From a virus: DNA of 64,000 nt. A model generated the notes under the pieces. It had not been told where the DNA came from. It saw only the letters and a program-made list of their open reading frames with translations, and ran no database searches. The stretch's first letter is position 1. Every line of letters starts with the position of its first letter. A program made the translations under genes and the position numbers. Below, in pieces: positions 39,285 to 55,391 of this stretch. The DNA lies in IMG/VR virus record IMGVR_UViG_3300048924_000151, positions 1 to 64,000 of that record. The stretch is one strand, 5' to 3'.

Positions 39285-40244
39285 ATGTCGCACGAAGTCG
39301 AAACGATTGCATACGTTGGCGAAACCCCTTGGCACGGTATCGGCACGCGCTGCGCCGATGGCATCTCCACCGACGATATGCTGGTGGCCGCCGGTCTGGA
39401 CTGGACCGTTAAGCAATACCCCATGCAGGTAACGCTGGAGGATGGCAAGTCCATCGATGTAGAAGGCAAGCGCGCCCTGATCCGTTCGAAGGATCATAAG
39501 GTGATGAACGTTTCGTCCGATAGCTGGACGCCCGTGCAGAATGCCGATCTCATCGGCTTTATGCGCTCTTACGTCGAAAGCGGCGGCGCGAAGCTGGAGA
39601 CGGCCGGAAGCCTGCGCGACGGTTCGGTTATCTGGGGCCTCGCGAAACTGGATCGCTCCTTCGAAGTATCAAAGAAGGACAAGGTTCAGGGCTACCTCCT
39701 GATCACCGGCTCGCACATCGTCGGCGTATCGACCAAAATCCGCACCGTTGCAACCCGCGTCGTCTGCATGAATACAATGCGGATGGCGGAACGCGAAGTC
39801 GGCAGTGTCTGCTACAAGCAGAACCACCTTGCCGAATTCGATGTGAATGCGGCCAAGATTGCGGTCGCAACTGCGAACGAAGAATTGGCGCAGGCGGAAA
39901 GCCGCTACAAGAAGATCAAGAAGCTGAAACTCAGCATCGAAGATGCGGTCCAGAAGCTTTACTGGAAGGTTCTTCCGGACAACGTCTATTCGACCGAAAG
40001 CGTCAAGAAGCTTCTCGCCGCGCCGGAAACTCAGTCGGCTCGCATGCAGGCCCTCATCGATAGCTACAAGACCGCGCCGGGCGCTGACGTCGGAACCGGC
40101 TGGGGCGCGCTGAACGGCTTCACGCACTGGACTGATCATAAGTTCGGCAACAGCGGCGAGGCTCGCATGCATCGCGTTACGTTCGGTGACTTCTCGCGCG
40201 AGAAGGATGCGATGGAGAAGACCCTTCTGGAATTGGCGGAGTAA
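39285..40244 (+). CDS. DUF932 phage/plasmid-like protein
   Basis: A 319-residue protein with the DUF932/TIGR03299 features: AYVGETPWHGIGTRC at the front, MLVAAGLDWTVKQYPMQV, an RSDHKVMNVSSD-type loop, FVVSKKDK-like and LLITGSHIVGVSTKIRTVAT strands, and VVCMNT. This family is common in phages and plasmids; its biochemical role is not settled. It is driven by promoter copy 5 and hence may be made strongly. Confidence 0.8.
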   Translation: MSHEVETIAYVGETPWHGIGTRCADGISTDDMLVAAGLDWTVKQYPMQVTLEDGKSIDVEGKRALIRSKDHKVMNVSSDSWTPVQNADLIGFMRSYVESGGAKLETAGSLRDGSVIWGLAKLDRSFEVSKKDKVQGYLLITGSHIVGVSTKIRTVATRVVCMNTMRMAEREVGSVCYKQNHLAEFDVNAAKIAVATANEELAQAESRYKKIKKLKLSIEDAVQKLYWKVLPDNVYSTESVKKLLAAPETQSARMQALIDSYKTAPGADVGTGWGALNGFTHWTDHKFGNSGEARMHRVTFGDFSREKDAMEKTLLELAE

Positions 40245-40326: not shown

Positions 40327-40980
40327 ATGCCAATCTCAGAAAAGTCCGATCCGAACCAGTGGCCCGACCGCTTCCTTGTGATACTTGCGCATGCGATGCA
40401 TCGCGCTGAGCTCGCAGAGAACGCTGGCGAGACGCCCGATTACAACATCCTTCCTCCGCCGCCTGAGGCTGACAAACGCGGAGATGTGGATATATCTATC
40501 AACGCTATGTTACACATCGCCGTTTTGGAATTGGTACCCGGCGACGAAGGCGATGCATATTTTCGCGGCAAGCAAAAGGCCGTTATAACGAAGCTTGCGC
40601 AGCAACTGATGAACGGTGAATTTCGCGGCATGGACCCGACGCCGGATATTCCTTTCGCAGCGCGCGATAGCGCAGCGCCGGGACGCGTTGCATCCTACAG
40701 CGAGCCGCGCGCCCCGAAGGCCCCGCGCGAGCCTAGAGCAGAGCGCCCGGCGAGCGACGGCCCGAAGGCCCCGCGCGCATCCGCCCTAGGCGGCAAGACC
40801 CTGCACAGCCTATGCGCCCCCGGCGTTAACCCGCGCGCTGCGGGATCGCATGGGCATAAGTCATTCCAGATTATTCTGGATAGCCCCGGCATCGAACACA
40901 GCGCATACCTCGCAGCCGGGGGGCGACAGGCCGATCTGGCCTATAACGTAACCAAGGGCTTCGTTGAAATCCGCGACTAA
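40327..40980 (+). CDS. Hypothetical protein with Pro/Arg/Ala linker
   Basis: A 217-residue protein. Residues 1-115 are helical (FLVILAHAMHRAELAENAGE; INAMLHIAVLELVPGD). A linker rich in PKAPREPR-type repeats follows, then a small C-terminal domain (SFQIILDSPGIEHSAYLAAG; AYNVTKGFVEIRD). AAAGAACCACA precedes the ATG. No family recognised; two-domain layout with a flexible linker suggests a tether. Confidence 0.6.
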   Translation: MPISEKSDPNQWPDRFLVILAHAMHRAELAENAGETPDYNILPPPPEADKRGDVDISINAMLHIAVLELVPGDEGDAYFRGKQKAVITKLAQQLMNGEFRGMDPTPDIPFAARDSAAPGRVASYSEPRAPKAPREPRAERPASDGPKAPRASALGGKTLHSLCAPGVNPRAAGSHGHKSFQIILDSPGIEHSAYLAAGGRQADLAYNVTKGFVEIRD

Positions 40981-40993
40981 AGGAACCACACTC

Positions 40994-41530
40994 ATGAAGA
41001 AGATGCGATTTGATACAAGCAAGCCGATTGCGACCTCGCTTGAGTTCTTCAACGCGGCAATGAACAGGGAGGTAAAACCCCCCAATCCGATAGGGGAGAA
41101 GGTCGGCGGGTTGTACCTGAACATCGGCGCAGGGACGAAGGAATTCCCGTGGGCAGTATCGATGCAACGACCGCAATGGAACGCGCCGGACCCGTTGCCC
41201 TACAGCGATAATGTTATCGATGGTATCGTGGCTCTGCATTTCTTTGAGCATCTCAGCGGGCGAGATGTACCGATCGTTCTCGCGGAATGCGCCCGCGTGC
41301 TTAAGTCGGGTGGCCTGATCAACATCGCCGTTCCGCATCGTGCAGGCGGAATGTCCGTGCAGGACTTGGATCATAAGTCGTTCTTCATGGAACGAACTTG
41401 GGACACATTGCTGAACAACGAATACTATCAGACGTTCGGCAATGAAATCCCGCTCTACATAAATTACAACTTGATCATGGGCGACGAAGAACGTACCCTT
41501 ACGGTATTCACCCAGATGCGAAAGCCTTGA
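40994..41530 (+). CDS. SAM-dependent methyltransferase-like protein
   Basis: A 178-residue protein with class I features: GLYLNIGAGTKEFP (motif I), WNAPDPLPYSDNVIDGIVAL then FFEHL (motif IV area), and ECARVLKSGGLINIAVPH. No DNA-methylase catalytic motif (NPPY/DPPY) is visible, so the substrate could be sugar, protein or small molecule. AAAGGAACCACACTC precedes the ATG. Confidence 0.7.
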   Translation: MKKMRFDTSKPIATSLEFFNAAMNREVKPPNPIGEKVGGLYLNIGAGTKEFPWAVSMQRPQWNAPDPLPYSDNVIDGIVALHFFEHLSGRDVPIVLAECARVLKSGGLINIAVPHRAGGMSVQDLDHKSFFMERTWDTLLNNEYYQTFGNEIPLYINYNLIMGDEERTLTVFTQMRKP

Positions 41531-43998: not shown

Positions 43999-44405
43999 GC
44001 AGGGTGGCTTTGTACAGGCCTAGCGATAAGACCGACTATGCCGCTTTGCGAAGGATCGCCGATGAGGTTGAGAGAATACGTTCTCCATCTCGATTTGTCG
44101 ATGTAGACATAATGCTTTCGATGGCTGGACTTCCTCGCGATACCTTGTATATCGATATGGGAGAAGGAAAAAAGAAGCGCGTTGTACACGCTGCTCCATT
44201 CTATACGATTGGATTCAACCCTGCGCGAGCGCTAGGCGGGACGATTGTGTTCGCTTCGGATATAGGTGCAGATGGATTGCCTATAGTTAAGGTGGTGTTT
44301 GATACGTCTACATCTCCTGTTGTTGAGCATACCGGGATTGCGCGCCGGTTGGAATTCGCGCTATTGTCGGCGACGTTGAGAGGAATTAGTCATGGCAAGT
44401 GCTGA
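43995..44405 (+). CDS. Hypothetical protein
   Basis: A 136-residue protein (MSRVALYRPSDKTDYAALRR; RVVHAAPFYTIGFNPARALG; GTIVFASDIGADGLPIVKVV). Mixed alpha-beta. ATGA coupled, and overlaps the MazG-like gene by 14 bases. No family recognised. Confidence 0.55.
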   Translation: MSRVALYRPSDKTDYAALRRIADEVERIRSPSRFVDVDIMLSMAGLPRDTLYIDMGEGKKKRVVHAAPFYTIGFNPARALGGTIVFASDIGADGLPIVKVVFDTSTSPVVEHTGIARRLEFALLSATLRGISHGKC

Positions 44406-45078
44406 AATGAACGAGACAGAGCAGGCGCTGTTCGCAGAGAACGAAAGCTTGCGCACGAAGCTTGCGAACGTCGAAGCAGAAAGTCTGCGGCGCGGCAAGA
44501 TGCTTCTGCGATATCGTGATGTCATCGCTAACATCAACGACACACTGCAAGACGAAGGTGACCGCGCGTATCTAGGATCGACCAACGACGTATACTCTAT
44601 CAAAGAGATTTCAACCGCGTTGGAAGACTTTGGATGGGATCAAATTCGCATAGAGAGCGGCAAGCGCGACGTGTTCGCTGACCTGCGCAATGCCAATGCT
44701 TATATTCGGCTGCTCGAAGAAAACGGCGACCTTGCCCGGCTGGGCAATGCGAATGAAAAGCGCGCATTGCTTTGGGACCCTGATAGTAAGCTGGACAGCA
44801 GCTTCCATTCGAACGAATTTGCCGGTGAGCTTGCTGAGCTTGCCATCGTATGCAATGTAATTAAAAAGCTTGAACGAGAGAGGCTTGGAATTAAAGGTTC
44901 GCGAGATACCGTTGAGCATCTTGGAAGTGAACTTGCTGATGTTGTTATTTGCGCAAGTAAGATTGCTGTGAGATATAAGATCAGTCTATGGAGTTATATT
45001 GTCGGCAAATTTAATGCGACATCAGAAGCACAAGGCTTTGATTGCTTTTTGCTGAGCAGTGCTAAAGAAGCCATCTAG
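44392..45078 (+). CDS. MazG-like nucleotide pyrophosphohydrolase
   Basis: A 228-residue protein. The N-terminus is a coiled coil (ALFAENESLRTKLANVEAES). From about residue 140 a MazG-like region follows: FAGELAELAIVCNVIKKLER, a loop, SRDTVEHLGSELADVVICAS and a third helix (KISLWSYIVGKFNATSEAQG). The ExxE and later ExxD acidic pairs are the metal ligands of the family, which hydrolyses NTPs/dNTPs to monophosphates. It may clear unmodified or host nucleotides for the modification genes downstream. Confidence 0.65.
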   Translation: MASAEMNETEQALFAENESLRTKLANVEAESLRRGKMLLRYRDVIANINDTLQDEGDRAYLGSTNDVYSIKEISTALEDFGWDQIRIESGKRDVFADLRNANAYIRLLEENGDLARLGNANEKRALLWDPDSKLDSSFHSNEFAGELAELAIVCNVIKKLERERLGIKGSRDTVEHLGSELADVVICASKIAVRYKISLWSYIVGKFNATSEAQGFDCFLLSSAKEAI

Positions 45079-45171
45079 AACAAAAAGCTTTCCTTTTAGG
45101 TACAAAGCTAGTACCGTTCGAATGCCGGTATAGCAGCGGCGAAAAACTGCTTTTAACCAGAGAGAGAAACT

Positions 45172-46143
45172 ATGAAGAAGCCATCCGAATACAAGGCCGG
45201 TGATAAGATCACCAAGGCTGCACCTACCAAGGCAGAGATTGCCGCAGCCGCTGCAAAGATCGCATCCGACAAGAAGGCCGCCGAAGAAGCCGCCGCGAAG
45301 GAAGCCAGCAAGGCAGTCGCAGTCGTTAATTCCGGCGCAACCGACCTCGTTACTCATGACGACTTCGGCGACTTCGCAGGGATGGGCACCGAGAATGTCA
45401 CCGCCAAAGACCTTCTCATTCCCCGTCTTACGATCCTGCAAGACCTTTCCCCGCAGGTGAAGAAAAACAAGCCGGAATTCATCGAAGGCGCTGAGATCGG
45501 TCAAATCTGCGATGTCGGCATGGGCACGGTCTTCGAAGGTCCGATCATTTTTCTGCCGGTCTTGTTCCGGAAAGACTATCTGGAATGGGCGCCGCGCGCA
45601 TCCGGCAAGGGCCTCATTGCGATCCACGACAACGACCGCATTCTGAGCAAGTGCACGAAGGACGAAAAGGGCCGTCCCTTCCTGCCGAACGGCAACTACA
45701 TCGCCGAGACGGCTCAGTTCTACGGCTTCAACGTCACGGACGGAATGCGCAAGTGTTTTATCCCGATGGCTTCGACCGGGCTGAAAAAGGCGCGGCAGTG
45801 GATGACGCTCGCTACCGGTGAAGTTCTGCGGCGCACGGACGGCAGCAGCTTCATGCCGCCGTTGTTCTATCGCGTCTATGAACTGGACACGGTCGAAGAC
45901 AGCAACAACGAAGGCACATGGTTCACGTGGAAGATCACTCGTGGCATGAGCCTTCCGGAACTTCCGGCTGAGCTTTCCGGCGACAGCAACTGGCATGCAC
46001 TCCGCGACCGCTGCATGGAATTCCACAAGAGCCTCGTCACCGGCGTGGACAAGGCAGACTTCGAAGAACCCGGCGAGCACGATTTGCGAACCGGCGAGGT
46101 TTCCGGCGATCAGTCCGGCGACGACACCGAAAGCAAGATGTAA
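45172..46143 (+). CDS. Conserved-type phage protein, possible ssDNA-binding or recombination protein
   Basis: A 323-residue protein. Residues 15-50 are Ala/Lys/Glu-rich. The core holds LLIPRLTILQDLSPQVKKN, EGAEIGQICDVGMGTVF and IIFLPVLFRKDYLEWAPRAS, a combination I recall in many lytic phages near replication genes. I do not know a proven function; DNA binding is often guessed. A downstream charged tail ends DDTESKM. The ATG has AGAGAGAAACT upstream. Confidence 0.6.
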   Translation: MKKPSEYKAGDKITKAAPTKAEIAAAAAKIASDKKAAEEAAAKEASKAVAVVNSGATDLVTHDDFGDFAGMGTENVTAKDLLIPRLTILQDLSPQVKKNKPEFIEGAEIGQICDVGMGTVFEGPIIFLPVLFRKDYLEWAPRASGKGLIAIHDNDRILSKCTKDEKGRPFLPNGNYIAETAQFYGFNVTDGMRKCFIPMASTGLKKARQWMTLATGEVLRRTDGSSFMPPLFYRVYELDTVEDSNNEGTWFTWKITRGMSLPELPAELSGDSNWHALRDRCMEFHKSLVTGVDKADFEEPGEHDLRTGEVSGDQSGDDTESKM

Positions 46144-46164
46144 CATACCTCCTGTCTATCAATA

Positions 46165-46190
46165 CCCCGTGCGCAATAACGCGCACGGGG
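46165..46190 (+). terminator. Hairpin after the 323-residue gene
   Basis: CCCCGTGCGC/GCGCACGGGG, perfect 10-bp arms with an AATAAC loop, 21 bases past the stop and 27 bases before the next start. No T tract follows, so it may act on mRNA stability rather than stop transcription. Confidence 0.5.
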
Positions 46191-46217
46191 AACGACGGAA
46201 CATAAGTGGAGATTGTT

Positions 46218-46805
46218 ATGTCAAATGCAGACGACTTTGACGTCGGCGCAGAATTGGCCCCGGCAGGACCGTTAGCCGCACTCAGGGCACTAGCCGACGA
46301 AGCATCGGCTTTGGATGAAGAAATCGAAGCCATCGAAAGCCTTCTGGAGATTAAGAAGGCTGAGATGACTGAGATCAAAACTATAAAGATGCCGAAAATC
46401 ATGATCGAGTCAGGCGTTCCATTGCTTGATGTCGGCCTCCGGCGTTTCGAATTGCAGAAATTCGTTTCCGGCAAATTACCGGAAGAAGAACCGCAGCGGA
46501 CTACAGCAATTGAAAAGCTGATGGAATACGAAGGAGGTGGTATCATTACCGCAGACGTTACCGTTCAGTTCGGTCGCGGAGATCACAACGCTTTCGTTTC
46601 TCTCCGTGAAGAACTGAAAGAACGCGGCTTTGCGGTGACAGCAGATACCGAAAAGGTCCATGCGTCATCTTACTGCGCATTCTTGCGAAGGCGTCTGGAA
46701 GACGGGAAAGATATCGATGCTGATATCATGAACGTCCACTTCGGAGATATCGTGAAAATAAACAAAGTGCCGAAAGCATTGCTCAAGAAAAGAGGATTGG
46801 CATAA
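46218..46805 (+). CDS. Coiled-coil conserved-type phage protein
   Basis: A 195-residue protein: N-terminal coiled coil (LRALADEASALDEEIEAIES), then a strand region (PLLDVGLRRFELQKFVSGKL), ITADVTVQFGRGDHNAF and a helix with EKVHASSYCAFLRRRLEDGK. I recall this combination in many phages beside the previous gene; the function is unknown to me. Start has GGAG 6 bases upstream. Confidence 0.6.
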   Translation: MSNADDFDVGAELAPAGPLAALRALADEASALDEEIEAIESLLEIKKAEMTEIKTIKMPKIMIESGVPLLDVGLRRFELQKFVSGKLPEEEPQRTTAIEKLMEYEGGGIITADVTVQFGRGDHNAFVSLREELKERGFAVTADTEKVHASSYCAFLRRRLEDGKDIDADIMNVHFGDIVKINKVPKALLKKRGLA

Positions 46806-47449
46806 TGTCTACTATCAACGACATCGCGAAGATGGAAGAAGAACTGGCGTCGCTTCGTCTCGCTCGCCAGACCGACCAGCATATGCTCTCCATGCAGGAC
46901 TTCGAACTCCGAAGCCTCCGAAGCGACAACATCACGCTTCGCGGAAGGATTGAAGAAGAACTCATGCGGGGTCGGGAGCTTGACACCCTGCTCCGGACCC
47001 TCTCTGCGGGCCTCGTTTCCGGCCTTGCGATCTATGCGAACGGCCGGAATGCCGCCGCAGCCGCAAGGCAGGGCGCGTTAGAACCGGAGCCGGGGGCCGA
47101 AGCCTGCCCGGAGCCGGAACCCCTCTCTACGGCCTTCTCCGCAGGGGCGGAACCGGAGGGAACCCCCCGTTTGGGTTCCGTCATTCCGGACCCGGACCAG
47201 AGGGTTGTTCCGGAGGCCGTAGAGAGGTTTGCGCCCCGCAGGGTACTAGGCCCGCCTATGACGGCTATGGACGTTGCTACGGGCCTTCCTAGCCGCACCG
47301 TGCCCAGGCAAGTGGTCCAGCATCCTCTTGAAGAACGGTTGGCATTGGCAGCGGACGGCATCGGCAGGCCGCACCGTACCCCGATACCGGGCGGACCGGA
47401 ATTCGTTGATCAGGAATTGCCTCCTATGTTCCTGAGGAATTCGAAGTGA
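46805..47449 (+). CDS. Coiled-coil and Pro-rich hypothetical protein
   Basis: A 214-residue protein. Residues 1-60 form a coiled coil (IAKMEEELASLRLARQTDQH; FELRSLRSDNITLRGRIEEE). The rest is Pro/Glu/Arg-rich and probably disordered. DNA of the disordered part is more GC-rich than its neighbours. Start overlaps the preceding stop by one base (TAATG). No family recognised. Confidence 0.55.
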   Translation: MSTINDIAKMEEELASLRLARQTDQHMLSMQDFELRSLRSDNITLRGRIEEELMRGRELDTLLRTLSAGLVSGLAIYANGRNAAAAARQGALEPEPGAEACPEPEPLSTAFSAGAEPEGTPRLGSVIPDPDQRVVPEAVERFAPRRVLGPPMTAMDVATGLPSRTVPRQVVQHPLEERLALAADGIGRPHRTPIPGGPEFVDQELPPMFLRNSK

Positions 47450-48351
47450 GTTTTGTTGTCATCGGCGCAGGCATGGCGGGGCTTTTAGCTTCCGCCATGC
47501 TGAGAGGGGAATGCACAGGCGTCTATGAACGCGCGCCTTGCCTTCCTAATAATCACAGCGCGGTCCTTCGGTTTCGTTCCGCAGTCGTCGGAGATACCCT
47601 AGGCATCCCATTCAAGAAAGTGCGCGTCATCAAGGCCGTCCATCCTTATATAAATCCCATCGCTGAGGCGATTGCCTATTCTATCAAGACCAATGGAACG
47701 GCATCTCTGCGCAGCAGCATCTCAGCGCGCGGTGAAGTCGATGATCGATATATCGCTCCAACTGATTTGGTAATGCAGATGGGCAGGATGTCGGTAGATA
47801 AGATCGTGTTCAGCGTCGATTTCAAGAACCAATTCGAAGGCCCGGTCATCAGCACTATGCCAATGCCGGTCCTTATGGAAGTTCTGGAGTATAAGCAGCG
47901 CGAGGCGTTTGATTTCGGTAGCTATAGCGGCACGAACATTATCGTCAAGCTTCGTAACTGTGACATTTATTCGACGCTGTATGTTCCCGACCCGGAAGTG
48001 CGTTACAACCGGGTATCTATAACCGGCGATGAAATGATCATCGAAATGCGCGGCACTATCGATGCGAGCGAAGTGCAAAAAATAATCATCGATGCAATGC
48101 TAGGCTGTGGCTTTACAGAACCGGACTTTGCATTGTCTTACTCAGTGCGTGAGCAGCGTTACGCAAAGATACTTCCCATCGAGGATGCAGCGCGCAAGCG
48201 CTTTATACAATGGGCATCTCGCGAGCGCGGTGTATTCTCTCTTGGTCGTTATGCGACTTGGAGGCCCGGATTGCTTATGGACGATATAGTGAACGACGTT
48301 CGCGTCATTCAGAGAATAGCGCGCGACAACCACTCATACGATCACACTTAG
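47446..48351 (+). CDS. FAD-dependent oxidoreductase-like protein
   Basis: A 301-residue protein with an N-terminal dinucleotide-binding motif VVIGAGMAGLLASAML, an acidic residue after it (VYERAP) and a C-terminal FAD-type segment SLGRYATWRPGLLMDDIVND. These flank a strand-rich middle, as in amine-oxidase/UDP-galactopyranose-mutase-like flavoproteins, but the chain is shorter than usual. It lies directly in front of the ThyX-like gene, in a cluster with a carbamoyltransferase, so a role in making a modified base is plausible but not proven. Confidence 0.65.
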   Translation: MSFVVIGAGMAGLLASAMLRGECTGVYERAPCLPNNHSAVLRFRSAVVGDTLGIPFKKVRVIKAVHPYINPIAEAIAYSIKTNGTASLRSSISARGEVDDRYIAPTDLVMQMGRMSVDKIVFSVDFKNQFEGPVISTMPMPVLMEVLEYKQREAFDFGSYSGTNIIVKLRNCDIYSTLYVPDPEVRYNRVSITGDEMIIEMRGTIDASEVQKIIIDAMLGCGFTEPDFALSYSVREQRYAKILPIEDAARKRFIQWASRERGVFSLGRYATWRPGLLMDDIVNDVRVIQRIARDNHSYDHT

Positions 48352-48360
48352 GGAGCTATC

Positions 48361-49098
48361 ATGAACGTTCAGCTTATCGACTATACTGGATACGGCTCGC
48401 GCCATCCCGCAGACCACGCAGCCAATGTTCTTATCTTCACGAAGAACACCCGACTCAAGATGGAGCCGGACGGCGCAGCGCAGATCGAACGATGGGACGC
48501 GGCTCGCAAGCTGGAAGAACTTACGTACATGGCGGCTACAATCCCGTCGTCGCACGAATTCGTCCATTATACGTTCTGCATTACCGGCGTGTCGCGCGCT
48601 TTCACTCATCAATTCGTTCGCACGCGAACCGGTAGTTATGCACAGCAGACCATGCGCGTTCTCGATGTGTCCGGCTGGAGCTATACAACCGGTCCGACGT
48701 TGCACAATTTCGAAGGAACGTTTGAGCTTTGGGAGGATACGATGAAGACCATCGATCTTGCCTATCAAGAGCTCATTGCGAAAGGCGTATCAATCGAAGA
48801 TGCGCGCGGCATCCTGCCGACGAATATCCAAACCAATATCGTCGCAGGCTTTAACCTTCGCACTCTCTGCGAACTTGTGCAGAAGCGTTCGTCTTCTCGC
48901 GTGCAGGGCGAATATCGCGATGTGCTTAACGGCATGCGCGCAGAGGCGATCCGTGTTCACCCGTTCGTGGAACTGTTTCTCAATTCGACGCCGGTTAAAG
49001 CCGCTGACGATCTGGAGGCGCTTGTCCTTCAGCATATGCCTGCGGAGTTGCGCATCACGGCAGTCAAGCTTATCGACAAGTTGCGGAGCGCAGTCTAA
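48361..49098 (+). CDS. thyX: ThyX-like flavin-dependent pyrimidine-modifying enzyme
   Basis: A 245-residue protein of the ThyX fold: HEFVHYTFCITGVSRAFTHQ, the signature region around residues 85-99 (FVRTRTGSYAQQTMR), the NIQTNIVAGFNLRTLCELVQ helix and a C-terminal RAEAIRVHPFVELFL. In ordinary ThyX the signature is RHR, Ser, Ser, RY/RF; here His is Thr, the second Ser is Thr and the aromatic is Val. This could be a deviating thymidylate synthase or a dUMP/dCMP hydroxymethylase-like enzyme. GGGAGCTATC precedes the ATG. Confidence 0.72.
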   Translation: MNVQLIDYTGYGSRHPADHAANVLIFTKNTRLKMEPDGAAQIERWDAARKLEELTYMAATIPSSHEFVHYTFCITGVSRAFTHQFVRTRTGSYAQQTMRVLDVSGWSYTTGPTLHNFEGTFELWEDTMKTIDLAYQELIAKGVSIEDARGILPTNIQTNIVAGFNLRTLCELVQKRSSSRVQGEYRDVLNGMRAEAIRVHPFVELFLNSTPVKAADDLEALVLQHMPAELRITAVKLIDKLRSAV

Positions 49099-49589
49099 TG
49101 CCTGCAATCGTCGTTGATCTTGATGGCACGCTGAGCGATCATTCTCACCGTGCCCACCTCGCTATCAAGAGAGACTGGAACGCTTACAATGCTGCGGCGT
49201 ATCTAGACCCGCCGCATAAAGAGGTCATCGAATTCCTAAAGGATGCGCGCGTTGGGTGCCCGGAATGCGAGCACATTCTGCTTACGGCTCGCAGCGATGC
49301 GTGGTATATCCAGACCGGCGATTGGCTCAAGAACATCGGGGCAACGTCTCTGTTCGATACGCTGTTGATGCGCCCAAAAGATGACATGCGCAGCGATGCG
49401 ATCATAAAGCCACTTATGCTCATCGAGCATTTCGGCGGCAACATTGCACGGGCAAAAAGCGAAGTGCGGATGATACTTGAAGACCGCACTACGGTTGTCA
49501 ACGCTTGGCGCGAGATTGGCTTTAAGTGCTGGCAGGTCCGTGCAGATATCATGCACGAAGAAACGATTTACACTCAAGGCGGAGATTGA
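49098..49589 (+). CDS. HAD-family phosphatase, polynucleotide-kinase-phosphatase-like
   Basis: A 163-residue protein with HAD motif I VDLDGTLSD (D7, D9), motif II HILLTARSD, Lys in DAIIKPLML and motif IV MILEDRTTVVNAWREIGFK. The arrangement matches the 3'-phosphatase domain of phage polynucleotide kinases, found alone in many phages. The substrate could be a nucleotide or DNA 3'-phosphate. Start overlaps the ThyX-like stop (TAATG), showing a shared operon. Confidence 0.75.
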   Translation: MPAIVVDLDGTLSDHSHRAHLAIKRDWNAYNAAAYLDPPHKEVIEFLKDARVGCPECEHILLTARSDAWYIQTGDWLKNIGATSLFDTLLMRPKDDMRSDAIIKPLMLIEHFGGNIARAKSEVRMILEDRTTVVNAWREIGFKCWQVRADIMHEETIYTQGGD

Positions 49590-49590
49590 A

Positions 49591-51210
49591 ATGTTAGTTC
49601 TTGGTTTGAAACTTACGCATGACGGCGCTGTCGCGATTATGGACGGCAGGCGTCTAGTCGGCGCAATTGAGATGGAGAAGGTGGAGAACCGCCCCCGCCA
49701 CTCGCATTGCAGGGGGATGGCTGACGTTGAGCAGGCCGTTCGTATGTTCGGCTATGAGGTGGGAGATTTTGATATCATATCTATCGATGGTTGGTCATCT
49801 GGCATTATCCCCGGATGGAACGACCTGCAAGTCAATGAATACGTTGATAATGAAAATTGCGAACGATATATCGAATGCAAAGGGTTCGCAGGTTTTGGAC
49901 ATGATTATATTTCCTACACTCATGTGCAGAACCATATATCGTCGGCCTTCCGCACTCACCCCGATGCGCCGGAAGAAGCCTATTGTATTGTATGGGATGG
50001 CGGAATTGGACCCACAGTATTCAAAGTCACGAACTACGGGACTGTATACATCGGCCGCATTCATGATTTCGTCGGTTCCGTCTACTCGATTATGGCCCGA
50101 TACTATGGGCCGTTCAAGGATCAAGCGTACATCGATGCTACGCCGGATCAGATCGTAATGGATCGCATGAAGGGCGGATACGATGTGCCCGGAAAGCTTA
50201 TGGCTTGGATCGCGAACGGAAAGCCCGACTACGGCGTTGTTCATGCAATCAATAAAGAGCTCATCGATCATGCGATGCCTAGCAGGCTGCCTCAGCCTTT
50301 GGCAGAGCATGGGTTCGCAAGGGCGCTTGGCTCTTACAACTACGGCACCGATGCCGATCTAATGCTCAACGCGCATCTTGCTTTGCAGCAGTCTTTGGTC
50401 GAAGGCGCTACGCAATTGATCCCAAAAGGATCACATCTTATGTTTGTTGGCGGAAGCGCGCTTAATATCAAATGGAATTCTGCGCTTCGAAATACGGGAC
50501 GCTTTGCAAGTGTATGGGTCCCACCTTTCCCGAATGATGCGGGCTCGGCTATCGGCGCTGCGATGTCGGTCGTCGGGCCGACGATGGGCAATGCATCGTG
50601 GAACGTGTTCAGCGGACCCGGTGTGAACTTCACGATGGAGCGCGGGACGCAATTAGGATGGGAATGCCGAGATGCTACGCCTTCTGAGGTAGCAGCCATC
50701 CTAGAAGATAATGCCTCAGTCGTTCTGGTGATGGACGGCAGGGCAGAGTTGGGTCCACGCGCACTAGGAAACCGTAGCTTGATTTCATCGGCAGTCGAAG
50801 CCGGCATGAAGGATCGATTGAATTACATGAAGAAGCGCGAGGGCTACAGACCGGTATCTCCGATCTGTATTGAAGACGAAGCGAAAAGCTGGTTTTCTCC
50901 GGGGACCCCTGATCCATACATGCTGTTCGAGCACGTAGCGAAAAATCTGGCGGTCAAGAATTGTCCGGCTATTGTGCATACGGATGGAACGTCTCGTTTA
51001 CAGACTATCGGAATTGATGTAGACACGACGGCCGCAAAAATTCTTCGAGCCTATCACAAGCGCACCGGCCTGCCGATCCTTTGCAATACGTCGGCAAACG
51101 ATCTAGGCTGCGGCTTCTTTGCTGATACCGCGACCGCACTTGCATGGTGCCAGAAGAACGATTGCGATCATATGTATAGTAGCGGATTGCTATTCACGAG
51201 AAAAGTATGA
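49591..51210 (+). CDS. NodU/TobZ-family carbamoyltransferase
   Basis: A 539-residue protein. N-terminal ASKHA-type domain: LKLTHDGAVAIMDGRRLVGA, VEQAVRMFGY, the histidine pair YTHVQNHISSAF near 109-120, WDGG and GSVYSIMARYYGPF. Middle: VGGSALNIKWNSAL and PPFPNDAGSAIGAAMS. C-terminal: GRAELGPRALGNRS (near 382), LNYMKKREGYRPVSPI and NTSANDLG. These match carbamoyl-phosphate-dependent O-carbamoyltransferases acting on sugars, antibiotics or, as I recall, hydroxymethylated bases in phages. GGAGATTGAA precedes the ATG. Confidence 0.85.
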   Translation: MLVLGLKLTHDGAVAIMDGRRLVGAIEMEKVENRPRHSHCRGMADVEQAVRMFGYEVGDFDIISIDGWSSGIIPGWNDLQVNEYVDNENCERYIECKGFAGFGHDYISYTHVQNHISSAFRTHPDAPEEAYCIVWDGGIGPTVFKVTNYGTVYIGRIHDFVGSVYSIMARYYGPFKDQAYIDATPDQIVMDRMKGGYDVPGKLMAWIANGKPDYGVVHAINKELIDHAMPSRLPQPLAEHGFARALGSYNYGTDADLMLNAHLALQQSLVEGATQLIPKGSHLMFVGGSALNIKWNSALRNTGRFASVWVPPFPNDAGSAIGAAMSVVGPTMGNASWNVFSGPGVNFTMERGTQLGWECRDATPSEVAAILEDNASVVLVMDGRAELGPRALGNRSLISSAVEAGMKDRLNYMKKREGYRPVSPICIEDEAKSWFSPGTPDPYMLFEHVAKNLAVKNCPAIVHTDGTSRLQTIGIDVDTTAAKILRAYHKRTGLPILCNTSANDLGCGFFADTATALAWCQKNDCDHMYSSGLLFTRKV

Positions 51211-51608
51211 AGTCAGTTCCCGAAATGCTAGAGACGGCAGCGGAGACCTATCGGGATCGCAACGCCGTCTACGGTGACGACTATAAAAAGATTGGCGCGA
51301 TGTATGTCGCGCTTTTCCCGAATGGCCTGACAGTAAAAACCGCAGACGACTGGCAGCGCCTCGCGCTGCTTATGGCCGCAGTCGGCAAGATGCGACGCTA
51401 CACGAACAACTTCGAAAGCGGGGGGCATGCTGACAGCCTGCTTGACCTCGCCGTATATTCGACTATGCTAAAGGAATTGGACGAATGCGCGCTATCATCT
51501 TCGACACAGAAACGACAGGCCTCCTCAAAAAGAAAGCAGCGCCGCTCAACACGCAACCAAGTGTCATCGAGTTTTACGGATGTGCGGTTGATCATACCGG
51601 TGAAGTAA
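51207..51608 (+). CDS. DUF6378-like protein
   Basis: A 133-residue protein. Residues 1-92 show the family pattern: MLETAAETYRDRNAVYGDDY, ADDWQRLALLMAAVGKMRRY and ADSLLDLAVYSTMLKELDE. The remaining 41 residues are basic, of low complexity and coincide with a 124-base overlap into the exonuclease gene, so the original stop was probably lost near 51485. The family often lies near nucleotide enzymes; its role is not settled. Confidence 0.65.
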   Translation: MKSVPEMLETAAETYRDRNAVYGDDYKKIGAMYVALFPNGLTVKTADDWQRLALLMAAVGKMRRYTNNFESGGHADSLLDLAVYSTMLKELDECALSSSTQKRQASSKRKQRRSTRNQVSSSFTDVRLIIPVK

Positions 51609-52018
51609 TCGACGTTTACGAAACGCTGATAAAACCACCGGAAAAGATCGCGCCTATCATCACGCAAATCACAGGCATCACGAACGAGATGCTGGAAGAC
51701 GCACCCCCCTTCTCGTTCGTTGCGCCAAAGATCAAGAAGTTTTTGGAAGGCGGAGAGCGCGTTGTCGCTCACAATCTTTCATTCGATGTGGGTATGATCG
51801 ATAACGAATTCGAAAGGCTTACGCAAGCACTTGCGTGGCCGAAGGTTAGAACTTGTACGGTCGAGCAGTTGGAGTTCATCAAGGGGCATCGGATGAAGCT
51901 GGCTGACTTATACAACTACTTTTTCCCCGGAGAGACTTACGGCGCGCATAGGGCGAAGGCAGACGTTGTTGCGCTTACCCGGATTTATCGTGAATGCTTG
52001 GTGCGCAATTGGCTCTAG
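51485..52018 (+). CDS. dnaQ: DnaQ-like 3'-5' exonuclease
   Basis: A 177-residue DEDDh exonuclease: IIFDTETTGLL (D7, E9), ITGITNEMLEDA, VAHNLSFDVGMID (Exo II), and YGAHRAKADVVAL with the catalytic His and Asp. It is the expected proofreading partner of the DnaE-like polymerase encoded 430 bases downstream. The start overlaps the DUF6378-like gene by 124 bases. Confidence 0.85.
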   Translation: MRAIIFDTETTGLLKKKAAPLNTQPSVIEFYGCAVDHTGEVIDVYETLIKPPEKIAPIITQITGITNEMLEDAPPFSFVAPKIKKFLEGGERVVAHNLSFDVGMIDNEFERLTQALAWPKVRTCTVEQLEFIKGHRMKLADLYNYFFPGETYGAHRAKADVVALTRIYRECLVRNWL

Positions 52019-52452
52019 CGTTTCCTCCTAGGCGCGGGTTTAAGCTGGCAGACCCGGAAGACCCTGACCACCCCGGCGTCGATGAGCATACGTATCGCAT
52101 ATTGCTCACCGACGATCCAAACGGCCTTTGCGCGATAGTCGATGCGATAGACTACTGGTGGGCATGCCAATGGCGCTGGCATAATCATCCGAGCAATCCG
52201 AACGGCAACAGGGTAGTTAAGAACTATGCGAGGCGCGCGCCTAGAGGCAGTCGAGATAGCAACGAAGGCGGCGCGCCAACTCAAATATACCTGCACAAAG
52301 CCATCTTAATTCGGATGGGTGCGCCGCAGCCGACCGAGTATCATACAATAGGAGATCACCAAGACGGGGATAGCCTAAACTGCCGACGATATAACCTAGA
52401 GTGGAATACTCTCTCTGGTAATGCGCAAACTGCGAAGCGAAAGAAACGATGA
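51994..52452 (+). CDS. HNH endonuclease
   Basis: A 152-residue protein with IYLHKAILIRMGAPQPTEY, then HTIGDHQDGDSLNCRRYNL and WNTLSGNAQ, the HNH/AP2-type homing endonuclease pattern. It lies between the exonuclease and polymerase genes, overlapping both, and has no good ribosome site. Free-standing HNH genes often sit between replication genes. Could also be a packaging-type HNH, but context favours homing. Confidence 0.7.
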   Translation: MLGAQLALAFPPRRGFKLADPEDPDHPGVDEHTYRILLTDDPNGLCAIVDAIDYWWACQWRWHNHPSNPNGNRVVKNYARRAPRGSRDSNEGGAPTQIYLHKAILIRMGAPQPTEYHTIGDHQDGDSLNCRRYNLEWNTLSGNAQTAKRKKR

Positions 52453-55391
52453 CCTTTCAGAGCATTCGATACCGTACTGGCTTTAGCTTCCGAGCCGCGA
52501 CCGGGCACATCGATGAAGTGCTCAATCGCATCATCGAGACCGGCGCGAAGGTCGCGCCTATAACGGATCGATCCAGCACATTCGGATTTAACAAATGGTC
52601 GAAGGCTTGCAAGAAAAAGGGCATTCGTCCCGTATACGGGATCGAACTTGCTGTTAGCGTTGATCCTGTAGCAAAGAAGCCTGTGATCGATTATTGGACT
52701 TTTATTTCATATAGTGACATCAAAGAAATCAATCGTCTTCTAGCCGTAGCGACTGCTCAGTTTAGGTATACAAACGTACTATCGTATGAGCAGGCTCTGG
52801 AAGCTGATTGCTTTAAAATCGTCGGGCATCGCAGCGACGTTGCGAGGATCGTTACAGCGAGCGGCCCTAAAGGCCCCCTTAACACCTACTATGCCCTAGG
52901 GCCTGCCGTAAGCAGGGGCTACGTTGCGCAGATGCGGGAAGCAGGGATAAACCCCGCCGCATCCGGAGACAACATCTATCCGACGAAGCGCCGAGAGGCG
53001 CAGGCTGAAATCATTCTAGGTCGCGGCTTTAGCTCGCAATCGTACCCCCAGCATATATTGAGCGAAGACGAATGGCTGGATAGTATTGCGCATTTAGATA
53101 TGAGTGCAGAGGAAATCGCAGCGGCCATTTATAACACAGAAGACATCCTAGAGCATAGCACTTCTCATATGGTGCTATCTGAATTTATGATACCTGAAAA
53201 GCCGGAGACCTTGCGCGCGATGTGCGAGAGGGGGGCGGCCAAGCTAGGTGTCGATCTTACGAATGAAGTATACAAGGAACGATTAGATCGCGAGCTTATG
53301 CTTATCGATGTAAAAGGATATGACAACTACTTCTATATCGTTGCCGATCTTGTATCATGGGCTCGCGAAAGAATGCTAGTCGGCCCAGCGCGCGGTTCTA
53401 GCTGCGGCTCACTGGTATGCTATCTGCTGGGCATAACGATGGTAGACCCTATCCCTTACGGACTTCTGTTTGAGCGTTTCGTCGATATCAATCGTATGGA
53501 TATGCCAGATATCGACATCGACTTTGCCGATCAAAAACGGCATCTCGTTGAAGAATATGCAGCAGATAAATACGGCATCGATCACGTTGCGCGCCTAGGC
53601 ACCGTCAATATGTTCAAGGCCCGTTCAGCTTTGCAAACTACTTGCATGGAATTAAACGTGCCTCGTTGGAAGGCAGATAAGGCTCTGGACGCGCTCGTCA
53701 AGCGTTCGTCAGCAGACGCCCGCGCGATGGATACTCTTATCGATACCCTATCTCTTACGGATGCAGGCAAAGAGCTTGTCAGTGAGCATCCTGAAATTGT
53801 ACCGGTGTTGGAAGGGTTCGAAGGCCACCCCCGCCATGCAGGCCAGCACGCGGCAGGTATCGTTATTTCAAAGACGCCAATTCGTGATACCGTCGCAATC
53901 GATAGCAGGACCGGCGCAACGCAATGTGATAAGAAGGATGCGGAAGAACTGAACCTGCTTAAGATAGACGCCCTTGGTCTCGTTCAGCTATCGATCTTTG
54001 AAGACTGCCTTGCGCTCGCCGGATTGCCTAAGAAACATCTTGATACAATTTCATATGATGATCCTGCTGCATATGCAGTGCTAAACAATTCTCAGTTCGC
54101 AGGCATCTTTCAGTACAACGGGAAGGCGCTGCAATACCTCGCCAATTATATCAAGTCTGATAACCTTGAAGACATCATCTCTGTTACAGCCCTTGCGCGC
54201 CCCGGCCCTCTAGCATCTGGCGGCGCAAACGAGTGGGCACGGCGACGGATCGGAGCAGACCCGGTAACGTATCCGCATCCCGTATTCGAAAGCCATCTCA
54301 AGAATTCTCTAGGGGTTATCATCTATCAAGAGCAGGTGATGACCATCGGCCGCGACATCGGAGATATGAACTGGGAGGAAGTGACCCAAGTTCGTAAGGC
54401 TATGGCTAAGTCGATGGGCAAGGAATACTTTAACCAATTCGGAGATAAGTGGAAGATCGGTGCCATGAAAAAAGGCATCAGCAAAGAAGTAGCTGACACA
54501 GTATGGGATCAGCTTTGCGCATACGGCGCATGGTCGTTCAACCGTTCGCATTCGGTCGCATACGGAATGATCAGCTATCAATGCTGCTGGCTTAAGGCGC
54601 ACTATCCTCTAGAGTTCGCAGCAGCGACTTTGCAACATGCGCACGATACAGAACTGCAACTGAAGCTCCTCCGTGAGATCGTGAGTGAAGGCCACAACTA
54701 CATCCCCGTAGATGCCGAGCAATCGACTAACAGATGGACTGTCGGCGTTCGTGGGCCGAACAAGATGCGCGTTCTAGTCGGCCCGTTGCAGAACGTTAAA
54801 GGCATTGGCCCGAAAGGCGTAGTCAAAGTTATATCGGCGCGTGCATCCGGAAAGAAGTTGACTGGCCGTGAAGCAAAGCTATTAGAGAACCCAGTTACTC
54901 CTCTGGACAGCCTGTTCCCTATCCGCGATGCATTCCGCAAGTATCTTCCGGACCCGAAAGCGCGTAACATATTCACCGAGCCGACGAAGATAATCGACAT
55001 CCAATGTGTGCCGAAGAACAAGGCCGACGAAGAACATCTAGTCTTTTGCGTATTGGCTCGCATCGCACCGCGCGACGAAAACGATTTGCAGAACGTCGCA
55101 AAGCGCGGATACGAATTGCGCGGACCAACGCAAGCGTTGAACTTGCGCATCATGGATGATACAGACGTCTTATTCGCAAAGATTAATCGCATGGACTATG
55201 AAAGGATCGGCGCAGAAATCGTAGAGCGGGGGGTTCCACTTAAACATCTGTACGTTCTAAAGGGCACTGTGCGTAGCGGTCTTGATTTTAGAATGTTCAA
55301 TGTTAAAGCGGCACGCTATATCTGCCCTATCGGCGGCGTCGAAGAACCGAAGCCTGTGAAGGTGAAAAAGACTAAGCAGCAAGACGACTAG
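52449..55391 (+). CDS. dnaE: DNA polymerase III alpha-like polymerase with degenerate PHP domain
   Basis: A 980-residue protein. N-terminal PHP-like region (1-75) keeps the fold pattern (APITDRSSTFGFNKW, GIRPVYGIE) but lacks the His residues and the TDH of active PHP domains. The polymerase core is intact: GPARGSSCGSLVCYLLGI (about 311), PDIDIDFAD (about 352, two catalytic Asp), HAGQHAAGIVIS, GIFQYNGKALQYL, and SFNRSHSVAYGMI. The C-terminus is shorter than in bacterial DnaE. It would replicate the phage genome, with DnaQ supplying proofreading. Confidence 0.88.
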   Translation: MTFQSIRYRTGFSFRAATGHIDEVLNRIIETGAKVAPITDRSSTFGFNKWSKACKKKGIRPVYGIELAVSVDPVAKKPVIDYWTFISYSDIKEINRLLAVATAQFRYTNVLSYEQALEADCFKIVGHRSDVARIVTASGPKGPLNTYYALGPAVSRGYVAQMREAGINPAASGDNIYPTKRREAQAEIILGRGFSSQSYPQHILSEDEWLDSIAHLDMSAEEIAAAIYNTEDILEHSTSHMVLSEFMIPEKPETLRAMCERGAAKLGVDLTNEVYKERLDRELMLIDVKGYDNYFYIVADLVSWARERMLVGPARGSSCGSLVCYLLGITMVDPIPYGLLFERFVDINRMDMPDIDIDFADQKRHLVEEYAADKYGIDHVARLGTVNMFKARSALQTTCMELNVPRWKADKALDALVKRSSADARAMDTLIDTLSLTDAGKELVSEHPEIVPVLEGFEGHPRHAGQHAAGIVISKTPIRDTVAIDSRTGATQCDKKDAEELNLLKIDALGLVQLSIFEDCLALAGLPKKHLDTISYDDPAAYAVLNNSQFAGIFQYNGKALQYLANYIKSDNLEDIISVTALARPGPLASGGANEWARRRIGADPVTYPHPVFESHLKNSLGVIIYQEQVMTIGRDIGDMNWEEVTQVRKAMAKSMGKEYFNQFGDKWKIGAMKKGISKEVADTVWDQLCAYGAWSFNRSHSVAYGMISYQCCWLKAHYPLEFAAATLQHAHDTELQLKLLREIVSEGHNYIPVDAEQSTNRWTVGVRGPNKMRVLVGPLQNVKGIGPKGVVKVISARASGKKLTGREAKLLENPVTPLDSLFPIRDAFRKYLPDPKARNIFTEPTKIIDIQCVPKNKADEEHLVFCVLARIAPRDENDLQNVAKRGYELRGPTQALNLRIMDDTDVLFAKINRMDYERIGAEIVERGVPLKHLYVLKGTVRSGLDFRMFNVKAARYICPIGGVEEPKPVKVKKTKQQDD

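Follow-up and report, generated by a model that had tools for sequence, protein, structure and literature searches.

A conserved phage gene core pairing a variant ThyX with a flavin enzyme, and a linked carbamoyltransferase, as a candidate pathway to carbamoylated uracil in DNA

Phages are already known to hypermodify their DNA, and one of the bases described carries a carbamoyl group, namely 5-carbamoyloxymethylcytosine. Phages M6, ViI and phi W-14 use a ThyA-like deoxyuridine monophosphate (dUMP) hydroxymethylase and add side chains by way of a 5-hydroxymethyldeoxyuridine (5hmdU) DNA kinase. These phages and SPO1 form a hydroxymethyl uracil at the nucleotide level that is then decorated, and their DNA is protected from type II restriction (PMC6449724). 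The carbamoylated cytosine came from MetaGPA, in which gene clusters of uncultured phages carrying ThyA and a carbamoyltransferase were found to yield 5-carbamoyloxymethyl-deoxycytidine (Yang et al. 2021, eLife, PMC8670742). Herein, we describe a related gene run in a 64,000-nucleotide stretch (hereafter the window), which comprises positions 1 to 64,000 of the 67,284-base virus contig IMGVR_UViG_3300048924_000151. The phage is known from its sequence alone.

Five genes are arranged head to tail on the plus strand between positions 47446 and 51608. These encode an FAD (flavin adenine dinucleotide) enzyme (47446..48351; phrog_4828, 7e-51), a variant of the thymidylate synthase ThyX (48361..49098; PF02511, 1e-30), a PNKP-type HAD phosphatase (49098..49589; PF25109 HAD_PNKP, 2e-20; phrog_415, 2e-31), an O-carbamoyltransferase of the NodU/TobZ superfamily (49591..51210; PF02543, 5e-43; PF16861, 3e-41; phrog_1601, 5e-67) and a DUF6378-like all-alpha protein (51207..51608; C-terminal domain of phrog_4889, 4e-19; PF19905 at only 20.8 bits, cut-off 27.1). 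Genes for a DNA polymerase III (Pol III) epsilon-like 3'-5' exonuclease (51485..52018; PF00929 (RNase_T), 4e-24) and for Pol III alpha (52449..55391; matched by tblastn to Pol III alpha genes annotated in related phages) follow on the same strand and end the conserved block. An initial annotation made from the letters alone had named the five proteins of the run, and these Pfam and PHROG matches bear the names out, that of the DUF6378-like protein by way of phrog_4889. It had also noted the phage polymerase genes that follow and the short gaps or overlaps within the run, which we measured as a gap of 9 nucleotides (nt), an overlap of 1 nt, a gap of 1 nt and an overlap of 4 nt. Both in the window and in its relatives, a C5-modifying enzyme, a group-transfer enzyme and replication genes are clustered, which is the arrangement expected of a hypermodification cassette. 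Our favoured reading, to which we give a probability of roughly 0.6, is that these genes make up a cassette for hypermodifying bases of the phage DNA, with a carbamoylated uracil as its product.

The likeness to the MetaGPA clusters is considerable, given that both come from uncultured phages, both combine a thymidylate synthase with pyrophosphohydrolase genes and a NodU/TobZ-type carbamoyltransferase, and the MetaGPA enzyme makes a carbamoyloxymethyl pyrimidine in DNA, as we propose here. However, those clusters use ThyA (PF00303), whose fold is unrelated to that of ThyX, their description mentions no FAD enzyme, and their carbamoyltransferase is only about 25% identical over 170 residues to that of the window and falls outside the clade described below. 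The record carries one ThyX, and ThyA (PF00303) was not found in it by a search that was positive in 9 of 14 control genomes. The initial annotation had described carbamoylation of 5-hydroxymethylcytosine (5hmC) as a feature of TET-containing clusters, which must be corrected because the published case we found was seen with ThyA-family (PF00303) genes and not in a TET cluster (PMC8670742). The order of events that we propose, with hydroxymethylation of uracil at the nucleotide level preceding decoration, and the proposed protection from restriction are those of SPO1, M6, ViI and phi W-14; Pfam recognised no such 5hmdU DNA kinase among the cassette genes. The replication blocks of Pbunavirus (PB1-like) and Wifcevirus have the same gene order as the window, with FAD enzyme, ThyX, HAD plus DUF6378, and Pol III. 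Unlike the window, these blocks have no carbamoyltransferase gene, and their HAD and DUF6378 parts form a single protein (phrog_4889). In Wifcevirus, a short-chain dehydrogenase/reductase (SDR) and another gene occupy the slot. The carbamoyltransferase gene of the window lies between separate HAD and DUF6378-like genes.

The window ThyX scores 107 bits against PF02511 (cut-off 24.8) and falls slightly below the cut-off of the NCBIfam thyX model (82.3 versus 87.9 bits). Its signature is RTRTGSYAQQTMR where canonical enzymes have RHR..S, and thus the altered signature reported earlier is real. Using Thermotoga maritima ThyX as the reference for residue numbers, the window enzyme has Thr in place of His79 (the His of RHR), Val in place of Tyr91 and Ile in place of His53; it also lacks His178 and retains the arginines that serve dUMP. 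The same alignment included 143 ThyX sequences from core loci, which collapse to 59 clusters at 70% identity. Arg78, Arg80, Arg147 and Arg174 are kept in these without exception, and Tyr91 is replaced in all 143 (by V, A, I, M, L or T). His79 has become T in 111, S in 16 and N in 14, and remains H in 2; His53 is replaced in all readable rows, mostly by I; and His178 is R in 142 sequences and K in one. In ordinary ThyX enzymes, Arg174 activates dUMP through deprotonation of N3, and both Ser88 and Tyr91 are critical (PMC8316439), while Tyr91 and Asn85 hold His53, which stacks on folate or flavin (PMC11940539). The pattern of residues therefore suggests that the uracil side of the active site has been kept and the folate/flavin side rebuilt. 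In short, the core ThyX proteins are homologous to T. maritima TM0449 and have the same four arginines, and they differ from it in the replacement of Tyr91, His53, His79 and His178 and in having an obligate FAD-enzyme neighbour.

Other phage ThyX proteins serve as controls. Those of Moorella, HRTV-19, HCTV-1 and Kimchi1738 phages keep RHR, and these phages are absent from the groups matched by the FAD enzyme. Some actinophage ThyX proteins have RTR or RQR (Suzy, Sadboi, Rie18), and these phages also encode a protein annotated ‘oxidoreductase’ that is distantly homologous to the FAD enzyme. Such a homologue, usually with the same annotation, was seen in 120 records of actinophages (of Gordonia, Microbacterium, Mycobacterium, Streptomyces and others), a homology judged from motifs read by eye and a Foldseek match of the window model to a mycobacteriophage oxidoreductase. 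In Krampusvirus (L163:146-2268), the oxidoreductase gene is directly upstream of a ThyX with RQR.

The pairing of the variant ThyX with the FAD enzyme extends well beyond the window. Separate tblastn searches matched 359 phage records with the FAD enzyme and 532 with ThyX, with equal counts (FAD enzyme/ThyX) in the Pseudomonas (291/291), Escherichia (27/27), Serratia (9/9) and Xanthomonas (6/6) groups. The core is present in Pbunavirus, Wifcevirus, Kylevirus, Ss1-like podoviruses, other isolates and many uncultured phages. The order FAD enzyme, ThyX, HAD, Pol III epsilon and Pol III alpha is found in the four named groups, and DUF6378 accompanies HAD in the first three. Profile and single-protein searches of IMG/VR added about 220 loci, some of which are repeated contigs, so that the following counts include some duplicates. 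An FAD gene lies no more than 4 kb upstream in all 131 ThyX loci that have at least 1.2 kb of upstream sequence, ThyX was found in all 155 FAD loci with at least 5 kb of downstream sequence, and Pol III follows ThyX in 75 of 76 ThyX loci. This pairing was not built in, because the ThyX search used no information on the FAD enzyme. Co-occurrence in other phages, which the initial annotation had proposed as a check, is thus evident for the core and, as described below, for carbamoyltransferase loci beside core genes. These data also correct it on two points. The FAD enzyme, which it had cast as an optional later step, is an obligatory partner of this ThyX whether or not the phage has a carbamoyltransferase, and the core is not peculiar to this phage.

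The FAD enzyme itself had no Pfam match. Its AlphaFold model (95 sequences) has a pLDDT of 93.4, and the best PDB match by Foldseek is UDP-galactopyranose mutase (UGM) 4dsh (E 1e-11, TMq 0.65), with the model grouped with UGM, renalase and hydroxybenzoate hydroxylase. On the basis of this model, we predict that the protein is a compact flavoprotein with a fold of the UGM/amine oxidase type, which is common more widely to amine oxidases and hydroxylases. It does not belong to the UGM sequence family, given that it lacks a Pfam match and that its sequence matches in the PDB include no UGM, cover only the FAD-binding end and have E values of 0.18 or worse. A scan of genome contigs from cellular genomes, covering hosts and prophages, returned only four contigs from metagenome-assembled genomes. 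This scarcity and the lack of a solved relative make the enzyme look like a member of a virus family.

The carbamoyltransferase of the window has both the N- and C-terminal carbamoyltransferase domains (PF02543 and PF16861) and matches TobZ (5e-25), GdmN and related chains in the PDB. Its HxxxH motif, D136 and GPRALGNRS are intact, and every enzyme in the alignment has H111, H115 and D136. We take these residues and the GPRALGNRS motif to have the active-site roles of their counterparts in TobZ. Viral contigs searched with this protein alone gave no matches, since the search patterns were too specific, and a profile of five cassette carbamoyltransferases recovered 20 loci, a number that includes identical contigs and loci sharing a contig. 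Of these, 17 show ThyX, two are truncated at their 5' end, and one (L258) is described below. All 20 adjoin Pol III or other genes of the core, with the carbamoyltransferase gene between FAD enzyme and ThyX in nine loci and between HAD and DUF6378 in six. Nineteen cassette carbamoyltransferases group together as a single clade in 98% of bootstrap trees, separate from the enzymes of cyanophages, Pelagibacter phages and MetaGPA, although the outer placement is rough because of long branches (that of MetaGPA is very long). The nearest carbamoyltransferase in a record labelled bacteriophage, MT837218 (L239), was dropped as evidence of context. Its neighbours, read by eye as a nitroreductase/SagB-like gene and an MFS transporter, look like bacterial natural-product DNA.

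Other cassettes have different genes in the position we call the tailoring slot. When the region from FAD enzyme to Pol III was tallied in 170 complete cassettes, 54 had an SDR with a protein of cluster c8, 19 had a class I methyltransferase, and 62 had no recognised extra enzyme, a figure that is an upper limit because the queries came from the slot itself. Rarer genes are glycosyltransferase-like, FkbM, radical SAM (S-adenosylmethionine), sulfotransferase, R2K ATP-grasp, aldolase and carbamoyltransferase genes. Families assigned by Pfam are carbamoyltransferase, class I, FkbM and CmcI-like methyltransferases, sulfotransferase, radical SAM/SPASM, aldolase, R2K ATP-grasp and SDR. Clusters c34, c73, c185 and c437 were labelled glycosyltransferases by eye and drew no Pfam match, and a VOC-fold assignment for c8, also by eye, found nothing in Pfam or PHROGs; both labels are tentative. 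The closest relative from the first search, L008 (FAD enzyme 50%, ThyX 56%), has HAD, SDR, c8 and DUF6378 at precisely the position that HAD, carbamoyltransferase and DUF6378-like take up in the window. The cultured Vibrio phage vB_ValP_VA-RY-3 carries a sulfotransferase-family gene (PF13469; L003:7181-7936) in this slot, and we know of no sulfated DNA bases. At L023:12488-13459, a ThyX/FAD cassette includes an R2K-clade ATP-grasp gene, which suggests an amide-forming tailoring step.

Most of the slot enzymes transfer groups to hydroxyls or similar acceptors. Because most of them depend on a nucleophile such as a hydroxyl, this group most likely comes from the core. From these observations we infer the chemical steps, the identity of the base and the purpose of the modification. 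The variant ThyX and the FAD enzyme would together convert dUMP to a nucleotide with a hydroxyl on a C5 carbon, where the FAD enzyme might take part through oxidation, flavin reduction or adduct transfer. The simplest product would be 5-hydroxymethyl-dUMP, given that the uracil side of ThyX is kept. The HAD phosphatase and the DUF6378-like and MazG-like proteins may adjust the nucleotide pool, and the carbamoyltransferase would use carbamoyl phosphate and ATP to place a carbamoyl group on the hydroxyl, at either the nucleotide or the DNA level. Carbamoylation before or after polymerisation is possible because the MetaGPA enzyme acts on 5-hydroxymethyl-deoxycytidine triphosphate (5hmdCTP), single-stranded DNA and RNA (PMC8670742). 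The most likely product would be 5-(carbamoyloxymethyl)-2'-deoxyuridine, which would serve to protect the DNA from host nucleases. To our knowledge, no carbamoyltransferase is known to act on a uracil base, and the window enzyme would be the first.

Our confidence differs among the parts of this proposal. That the cassette modifies DNA bases seems very likely to us, and the presence of a carbamoylated base in this phage is probable. We also lean towards uracil rather than cytosine as the modified base, because all 143 core ThyX sequences retain Arg174, the residue that deprotonates dUMP at N3. The initial annotation had the carbamoyltransferase and the ThyX-like enzyme act on a DNA base, an idea well served by their strict co-occurrence in uncultured phages, although uracil now appears to be a more likely target than the cytosine of the precedent it cited. 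More tentatively, the ThyX variant and its FAD partner could constitute a new flavin-based core for making hydroxylated uracil, with chemistry unlike that of ThyX, ThyA or TET, on which swappable tailoring enzymes build a series of unrecorded bases, 5-carbamoyloxymethyl-deoxyuridine being that of the window.

Several observations weigh against the carbamoyl-uracil proposal. His79 is retained in 2 of the 143 core ThyX sequences and, among 14 carbamoyltransferase cassettes that were inspected, in 2. Two short loci have an FAD gene with no ThyX detected even by hidden Markov model: L032, within 4.4 kb, and L258 (IMGVR 3300033143_003944), which has a carbamoyltransferase and a methyltransferase. 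The carbamoyltransferase search patterns came from cassette members and hence favour that clade, and the queries of the slot tally were drawn from the slot. The AlphaFold model of the DUF6378-like protein (four helices, pLDDT 95.3) has no PDB fold match below E 1, and therefore a MazG fold, which we considered, and a MazG-like role are unsupported.

Published restriction data for relatives cut both ways. Wifcevirus phages with the core, which infect E. coli, resist nearly all restriction systems tested and have no known protection (PMC11990801). In the genome of the Wifcevirus phage Bas99 there are 19 sites for EcoRI and 4 for EcoRV. EcoRI was reportedly among the systems in the Wifcevirus panel. 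The Pbunavirus phages AA20 and AC20 resist 10 and 7 of 16 enzymes, respectively (PMC11945000). However, site counts on records HTN3 and HTN4, which we took to be AA20 and AC20 from their genome lengths, indicate that absent or rare sites could explain the resistance of AC20 fully and that of AA20 mostly. We therefore regard this resistance as weak evidence of modified DNA. Pbunavirus DNA is cut by HindIII, MspI and SacII. END nucleases act on modified DNA (PMC12904381), and the Pbunavirus phage Banzai carries ZadI-1, which is reported to inhibit END nucleases. As far as its title and citations go, a preprint by Yee et al. (2025; 10.1101/2025.03.31.646159) links Pbunavirus with END nucleases acting on modified DNA and suggests that Pbunavirus DNA is hypermodified.

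The alternative that fares best, which we nonetheless regard as improbable, is that the modified base is cytosine, with the variant ThyX serving as a deoxycytidine monophosphate hydroxymethylase and with 5-carbamoyloxymethylcytosine as the product, as in the ThyA-linked system. That base is the only demonstrated carbamoylated DNA base that we found, and the 5hmC carbamoyltransferase of MetaGPA was inactive on 5-hydroxymethyl-deoxyuridine triphosphate (PMC8670742), a result that also counts against our proposal. However, Arg174 is invariant and the N3 of cytosine bears no proton that it could take, the cassette carbamoyltransferases share only about 25% identity with the 5hmC enzyme over part of their length, and DNA of Pbunavirus, which has the core and no tailoring enzyme, is cut at sites made only of C and G (SacII, MspI and HpaII). 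The cutting by SacII, seen in the Pbunavirus phage JG024 (PMC3008698), argues against a general modification of cytosine.

Slightly less credible is a scheme in which the FAD enzyme and ThyX build another C5 side chain, for example a longer or amine-bearing one, whose hydroxyl or amine the carbamoyltransferase would modify. The UGM/amine oxidase type of fold, the occurrence of aldolase, radical SAM and R2K ATP-grasp genes in some cassettes, and the loss from core ThyX of the residues around folate and flavin are all compatible with such a scheme, but the run of the window contains nothing recognisable as an enzyme donating carbon or amine, and a hydroxymethyl group is the simplest acceptor for an O-carbamoyltransferase. 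The least likely alternative is that DNA is not modified at all and that an ordinary ThyX has drifted beside a flavoprotein partner, with a surface sugar or small molecule as the substrate of the carbamoyltransferase, as might be suspected from the NodU-type enzymes of cyanophages and Pelagibacter phages that adjoin unrelated or sugar genes and from the bacterial appearance of MT837218, the nearest sequence outside the cassettes, but this fails to explain why the cassette clade is found only beside FAD/ThyX core genes, why the critical Tyr91 is replaced in 143 of 143 sequences and why enzymes that transfer sulfo, methyl and other groups turn up repeatedly in one slot next to DNA polymerase.

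Some features around the cassette also deserve mention. The gene at 44392..45078 (plus strand) is a candidate MazG-like deoxynucleoside triphosphate pyrophosphohydrolase. Its own sequence had no Pfam or PHROG match, and the assignment comes from a 45%-identical homologue in L008 that scores 23.6 bits against PF03819 MazG (cut-off 22). It therefore stands as a candidate, upstream of the tight run and not part of it. Three genes intervene, all upstream of the FAD gene: one for a Pam3 gp34-like protein (45172..46143, plus strand; PF23977, 4e-50), found upstream of the FAD gene in many relatives, one for a Pam3 gp33-like protein (DUF7307; 46206..46805, plus strand; PF23984, 8e-16), also a frequent upstream neighbour, and one unknown gene. 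Farther upstream are genes for a DUF932 protein and an S-adenosylmethionine-dependent methyltransferase (phrog_6636), at 39285-40244 and 40964-41530. At the other end, the DUF6378-like open reading frame (51207-51608) overlaps that of Pol III epsilon (51485-52018) by 124 nt in another frame. The conserved DUF6378 domain ends near the start of this overlap, and the C-terminal tail may reflect a lost stop codon or a frameshift. Across window positions 1-64000, EcoRV (58 sites versus 13 expected) and EcoRI (38 versus 13) sites are over-represented, and BamHI, BglII, PstI, XhoI and SacII sites are absent (13-24 expected).

We did not find the ThyX-variant/FAD core, its tailoring slot or the linked carbamoyltransferase clade described in the literature that we searched, although the Pbunavirus base may already have been reported by Yee et al. 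(2025). If our proposal is correct, phages would have a second way, based on flavin, of making hydroxylated pyrimidine nucleotides for their DNA, and several new bases would be predicted. It would also provide a testable explanation for the resistance of Wifcevirus phages to restriction systems, and it would be relevant to Pbunavirus, whose members infect Pseudomonas and are widely used in phage therapy.

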